Of a stretch of DNA of 64,000 nucleotides, positions 10,475 through 10,605 are shown one piece after another. The position numbers were made by a program, and so were the translations under genes. Under the pieces are notes generated by a model. The model was not told where the DNA came from, ran no database searches, and saw only the letters and a program-made list of their open reading frames with translations. Each line of letters begins with the position of its first letter. Positions within the stretch are counted from its first letter, which is position 1. This stretch comes from Gemmatimonadaceae bacterium (GTDB taxonomy: Bacteria; Gemmatimonadota; Gemmatimonadetes; Gemmatimonadales; Gemmatimonadaceae), in contig JAIBBJ010000024.1 in the NCBI GenBank assembly GCA_019694735.1, forward strand, positions 1-64,000, given 5' to 3'.

Positions 10475-10505
10475 AAAACGCCCGATGCGTCGAGGCGCAC
10501 CGGGC
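10475..10505 (-). terminator. Attenuator hairpin of the SAM-II riboswitch
   Basis: Reading the minus strand, a 10-bp stem (10505-10496 with 10489-10480, one G-U pair) with loop CCTCGA is followed by G and TTTT at 10478-10475. It has the form of an intrinsic terminator. It sits 2 bases past the predicted pseudoknot strand of the riboswitch and about 20 bases before the metF start. It is the likely expression platform, stopping transcription when SAM is bound. I could not identify the competing antiterminator pairing with certainty. Confidence 0.75.
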
Positions 10506-10560
10506 CGGCGCTTTAGCTGGTTGTTTAACGTGGCCGCAATTTGCCTCGAAATCGCCACGG
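10505..10560 (-). promoter_or_regulatory. SAM-II riboswitch (metA RNA) upstream of metF-metH
   Basis: On the minus strand, stem P1 CGTGGC (10559-10554) pairs with GCCACG (10534-10529). The loop starts GATTT and ends ATTGC, and the tail reads TTAAACAACCAGCTAAAGC. The order 'P1 - GAUUU...AUUGC - P1 - A-rich linker - AGCUAAA' matches SAM-II. The pseudoknot can form through loop TTGC with GC(T)AA and loop GGC with GCC (10509-10507). SAM-II senses S-adenosylmethionine and is described mostly in alphaproteobacteria upstream of metA, metX and metC. Its position before methionine-synthesis genes supports the call. The match is to a remembered consensus; a covariance search was not run. Confidence 0.85.
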
Positions 10561-10576
10561 ATCGGTTGTCACGTTC

Positions 10577-10605
10577 ATTCTATCATCCGGATGAACGGAT
10601 GGCAA
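10577..10605 (-). promoter_or_regulatory. Sigma-70-type promoter for metF-metH
   Basis: On the minus strand, TTGCCA (10605-10600), a 17-base spacer and TAGAAT (10582-10577) match the vegetative promoter consensus at the ideal spacing. It overlaps the last codons of the upstream DUF167 gene. It would start the transcript about 10 bases before the riboswitch P1 stem. Confidence 0.8.

Follow-up and report, generated by a model that had tools for sequence, protein, structure and literature searches.

SAM-II riboswitches have earlier been described in proteobacteria, among them the alpha and gamma classes, and in Bacteroidetes (PMC1273637, PMC2258182, PMC4239095), and at the time of a 2007 survey their mechanisms were without experimental establishment (PMC2258182). 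The Agrobacterium tumefaciens metA RNA and its alphaproteobacterial relatives are characterized by a P1 hairpin, a P2 pseudoknot and GAUUU, UUGC and GCUAAA boxes, with a promoter a few bases before P1 and a terminator after P2 (PMC1273637). The same parts in the same arrangement are found upstream of metF and metH in the window, the whole stretch of 64,000 nucleotides of a Gemmatimonadaceae bacterium that was analysed. All features described below are on its minus strand.

A search of all Rfam families with cmscan gave one match within the window, to the SAM-II family RF00521 (SAM_alpha), at 10493-10568 and along the full model (1-79). It scores 44.0 bits (E 1.2e-6), above the gathering score of 36; a value below that threshold, which the first-pass annotation had named as refuting its reading, was not obtained. 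The first-pass annotation had proposed a SAM-II RNA with a 6-bp P1, the conserved boxes and a GGC/GCC pseudoknot, and all of these parts were found; the RNA had been given as 56 bases long, whereas the Rfam match spans 76. P1 occupies 10529-10559 according to the Rfam alignment and folding, and its six base pairs, 10559-10554 with 10529-10534 in the alignment, are standard throughout. The GAUUU box (10553-10549), the UUGC box (10539-10536) and the GCUAAA box (10517-10512) were aligned to the Rfam consensus. The two strands of P2, GGC at 10543-10545 on the 5' side and GCC at 10507-10509 on the 3' side, were located by fixed-register pairing across 179 distinct copies from the phylum. In this single register loop and tail pair in 135 of the 179 copies, compared with 76.6 +/- 6.4 when the partners are permuted; the count is inflated by related sequences, but the pair types nonetheless differ on both sides (GGC/GCC, CGC/GCG, GCG/CGC and AGC/GCU). 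Judged by its sequence, the RNA is a genuine SAM-II riboswitch, an ordinary member of the known class, and would be expected to bind SAM.

SAM-II is common in Gemmatimonadota and near-universal in the order to which the window belongs. The host is, as had been suspected, not a proteobacterium. Its genome contains two SAM-II copies, the second of which precedes a metX-like gene, and no SAM-I. SAM-II matches were found in 57 of the 61 nearest genomes, 52 of them exceeding the gathering score, and across the phylum in 137 of 200 genomes and 64 of 93 genera. The 179 copies precede metH (76), metF (22), thrC-type genes (16), metX (15), metY (13), ATP-grasp genes (9), panB (8), hom (6) and sulfite-reductase-type genes (4), the targets being assigned by BLAST to representatives named from sequence, with a check against curated models for metF and metH only. 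The metF-metH target had been regarded as odd for this class, a view that finds no support within the phylum: metF or metH is downstream in 98 of the 179 copies, so the gene context of the window is normal there. The loop sequence splits by target, with one type in all 98 metF/metH copies and the type GCCGC in almost all metX, metY, panB and hom copies. The counts mark SAM-II out as a main regulator of the methionine cycle in Gemmatimonadota, where no published description of it was found in a search limited to open papers. The copies that precede panB (L003, L034, L061, L068, L082, L214, L217 and L300) have a target outside methionine synthesis proper; PanB, ketopantoate hydroxymethyltransferase, uses methylene-THF like MetF. 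ATP-grasp genes follow the riboswitch in L040, L070, L079, L090, L259 and others.

The promoter is just upstream of the aptamer. A consensus scan identified the -35 hexamer TTGCCA (10600-10605) and, after a spacer of 17 nt, the -10 hexamer TAGAAT (10577-10582), which is of the extended type. TTGCCA or close variants are found in every metF leader of two genera, g1 and g20, and the -10 position of the sister leaders reads TAGAAT, TAGGAT or TAGGTT. Downstream of the aptamer, the terminator scan and folding gave a hairpin at 10480-10505, GCCCGGTGCG-CCTCGA-CGCATCGGGC followed by GTTTTCC, with a 10-bp stem of -18.9 kcal/mol and a U4 tract. Shuffling of the region gave an expectation of 0.0 promoters and 0.2 terminators. 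Two bases had been claimed between P2 and the terminator, but there is one. The ribosome-binding site AGAGGT (10461-10466), read from the sequence, is outside the stem and 13 nt beyond it. The two genes directly downstream of the riboswitch, on the same strand, are metF (9572-10456, methylenetetrahydrofolate reductase, 294 amino acids) and metH (5829-9575, B12-dependent methionine synthase, 1248 amino acids). Both proteins exceed NCBIfam cut-offs: MetF scores 344.6 bits with TIGR00676 (cut-off 293.7) and 392.2 with NF006950 (382) and has a PF02219 match, while MetH scores 1729 bits with TIGR02082 (cut-off 1010.85) and has five MetH domains in Pfam. The genes overlap as GTGA, which suggests a single transcript. 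The promoter, the terminator and the gene order of the first-pass annotation are all borne out by these results.

The switching partner of the terminator had been described as not obvious, and a good candidate can now be named. The aptamer loop contains UCGAGGC (10543-10549), including the GGC of P2, and this strand is a perfect 7-bp complement to GCCUCGA (10496-10490), the last base of the terminator stem and the hexaloop, which was identified by complementarity, folding and shuffles. When successive prefixes of the leader are folded, P1 forms first (-12.7 kcal/mol for the prefix through 10505). Once the terminator loop has emerged the predicted fold is a nested antiterminator of UCGAGGC/GCCUCGA, AUUG/CGGU, GGCC/GGCC and CGUU/AGCG with an energy of -25.2 kcal/mol, in which P1 is broken and most of the terminator 5' arm is covered. 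The covered part of the arm, GGCCCGGU at 10499-10506, pairs in the prefix fold with GGCC (10535-10532) and AUUG (10540-10537). A mere kissing interaction of the aptamer loop with the terminator hexaloop was dropped as a candidate, since most of the 5' arm is paired in the prefix fold. Folding from P1 onward through the terminator loop gave -24.6 kcal/mol for the antiterminator and -18.6 with P1 forced, and folding to the U tract gave -30.7 kcal/mol free and -30.5 with P1 and the terminator forced; the antiterminator state and the state with aptamer and terminator are therefore balanced in energies that ignore pseudoknots and exclude SAM binding and P2. Of 3,000 dinucleotide-shuffled versions of the downstream strand, 2.0% reached the energy, 1.6% had a run of 7 bp or longer, and 0.8% combined the energy with loop pairing. 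The loop strand is a strong and plausible candidate for the switching partner. P2 and the antiterminator share the GGC and are for that reason mutually exclusive.

This pairing suggests a switch of OFF polarity. With SAM bound, P1 and P2 would hold the GGC of the loop against GCC, the 10-bp hairpin would form and transcription would stop at the U4 tract before metF. SAM binding together with P2 would tip the balance to P1 and the terminator. Without SAM, UCGAGGC would pair with GCCUCGA in the growing leader, followed by AUUG/CGGU and GGCC/GGCC; P1 would be broken, the terminator 5' arm occupied and the RNA polymerase allowed to pass.

The sister copies give support of different kinds to the loop antiterminator. 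GCCTC is present in 17 of the 19 metF leaders of g1 and g20. In the 18 metF leaders of these two genera with a recognised terminator, loop-downstream pairing of at least 5 bases was found in 78%, compared with 20 +/- 7.5% in shuffles (highest 33%), and the mean energy was -24.8 compared with -22.6 +/- 0.5. Covariation is uninformative in the g1 and g20 metF leaders, where the aptamer is nearly invariant, and since the loop is near-invariant too, the support there comes from conservation and complementarity only. In copies with a GCCGC-N loop, the combination of the base N and the terminator base opposite it is G-C for 10 genera, C-G for 18 and C-C for 2 (Fisher p, weakened in both cases by relatedness, is 2e-6 for genera and 5e-15 for copies). 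The changes are few: the metX tree requires 2, and well-supported branches account for 1 of these. Both states of N, with matching partners, are found in the hom and sulfite-reductase copies; panB copies of two genera, with the loop changed and the partner not, break the covariation. Antiterminator-like pairing is common by chance in GC-rich leaders, reaching 19-58% in shuffles depending on class and measure, and shuffles of contiguous helices alone have low power there (13-17% of copies below 0.05). Whole-segment RNA duplex energies gave a weak own-versus-other signal with long bulged duplexes, and contiguous helices and prefix folding were used instead. Several sister leaders have the poor U tract TTCGTGC, and termination may be weak in these. 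In L024, L026, L027 and L039, which have this tract, a conserved GTGC that is absent from the window could pair with GCGC of the tail.

Another form of termination control would use the P2 3' strand and the GCUAAA box as switching partner, with P1 kept and the loop strand not involved. Many sister copies appear to do so: among 85 other copies, 74% have the tail GCUAAAnnGC paired with the terminator region, compared with 39 +/- 5% of shuffles, as in the pairing of GCUAAAACGC with GCGUUUUGGC. Two leaders of the window's own genus (L044 and L055) fold in this way, and these two and L275 and L277 of g20 keep P1 and have a different hairpin. In the prefix fold of the window, however, 2 tail bases pair downstream compared with 13 loop bases, and the tail is an unlikely partner here. 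Control of translation, in which the SAM-bound RNA would hide the ribosome-binding site and the hairpin would be incidental, is a doubtful explanation for the window. It is the way in which the best-studied SAM-II RNA works (PMC10907184), and in L211-L213 no terminator is present and the aptamer runs right up to the start codon of metH, an apparently translational layout. The AGAGGT of the window (10466-10461), on the other hand, is separated from P2 by about 40 nt and from the hairpin by 13 nt, and by a simple rule 169 of the 179 phylum leaders have a hairpin and then T-rich sequence between aptamer and gene. For the window the loop antiterminator is preferred. It offers a specific, experimentally accessible answer to the question of how a terminator can be controlled by a SAM-II aptamer.

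An additional control at the promoter is indicated by an inverted repeat, CATCCG-N6-CGGATG (18 bp, CATCCGTTCATCCGGATG), at 10584-10601. This putative operator, identified by conservation and by a shared repeat, overlaps the end of the -35 hexamer and fills the spacer to the -10. It was absent from the first-pass annotation. Its 16-bp core ATCCGTTCATCCGGAT is unchanged in 19 of 19 metF leaders listed for g1 and g20. A second CATCCG-N6-CGGATG, differing in its centre, lies across the start codon (L315, 1500-1517) of a gene that encodes a fusion of an ArsR-type helix-turn-helix (PF01022, 43.9 bits) and a methyltransferase domain (PF08241, Methyltransf_11, 79.7 bits) in a protein of 312 amino acids. 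The gene is present in 32 of 61 relatives, and of 30 upstream regions that were read, most carry the repeat itself or a near variant. Searches of genomes of the genus gave mainly two sites, one at metF and one at the ArsR-methyltransferase gene, most genomes having both; a reversed control pattern gave 0 in 16 of 17 genomes of the genus. The repeat is common to the metF promoter and the ArsR-methyltransferase start, and metF is therefore probably controlled by a repressor in addition to the riboswitch. The ArsR-methyltransferase is likely a repressor both of its own gene and of metF, and it would exert the earlier control, probably by binding the repeat between -35 and -10. That the operator is the main control, with a riboswitch that is decaying or minor in the genus, is improbable, as the invariance of the operator core in all 19 leaders and the poor U tracts of sister leaders are set against an equally invariant aptamer core and, in the window, a U4 tract after the -18.9 kcal/mol stem. 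A third copy of the repeat, CATCCGTTCAGCCGGATG, was found in L313 (1500-1517; C210:8019-8036 in the window's own genome). The ORFs directly behind it, one small and one PqqD-like, are reminiscent of a lasso-peptide cluster. This copy may be a chance occurrence or a real target, and the same variant is also present in G004.

Taken together, the SAM-II riboswitch is proposed, with fairly good confidence, to terminate metF-metH transcription when SAM is plentiful and to let its loop act as antiterminator otherwise, with a probable second control by a repressor. A more specific version is offered tentatively, namely a gate with two sensors in which an ArsR-methyltransferase repressor responsive to SAH or SAM is combined with the SAM-II loop as antiterminator. 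If this version is true, one short stretch of DNA would respond to the SAM/SAH balance. A paired control of one promoter by protein and RNA is suggested.

The class of riboswitch is a known one; the mode of switching and the dual control of metF are proposed here by inference. Compared with the alphaproteobacterial SAM-II RNAs (PMC1273637), the window belongs to Gemmatimonadota and its target is metF-metH, not metA, metX or metC; its putative antiterminator recruits the aptamer loop at the expense of P1. A loop-type antiterminator special to Gemmatimonadota was considered and dropped, because downstream complements are likewise found for the loops of alphaproteobacteria (95%, compared with 70% of shuffles). 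For the metZ SAM-II RNA of Sinorhizobium meliloti, transcription termination on SAM binding is likewise predicted, for a different gene (PMC9373788). The Sargasso Sea metX RNA (2QWY; PMC10907184) has the same class of aptamer and hides the ribosome-binding site in P2, whereas that of the window is far downstream. On the protein side, the closest likeness is to SahR and SamR of Proteobacteria, which also have an ArsR-type helix-turn-helix and have metF and metH among their targets; their palindrome is of the kind ATC-10 nt-GAT (PMC4239095), a consensus that the metF site of the window fits. The Gemmatimonadota protein differs from SahR and SamR in being fused to a methyltransferase domain and in belonging to another phylum.
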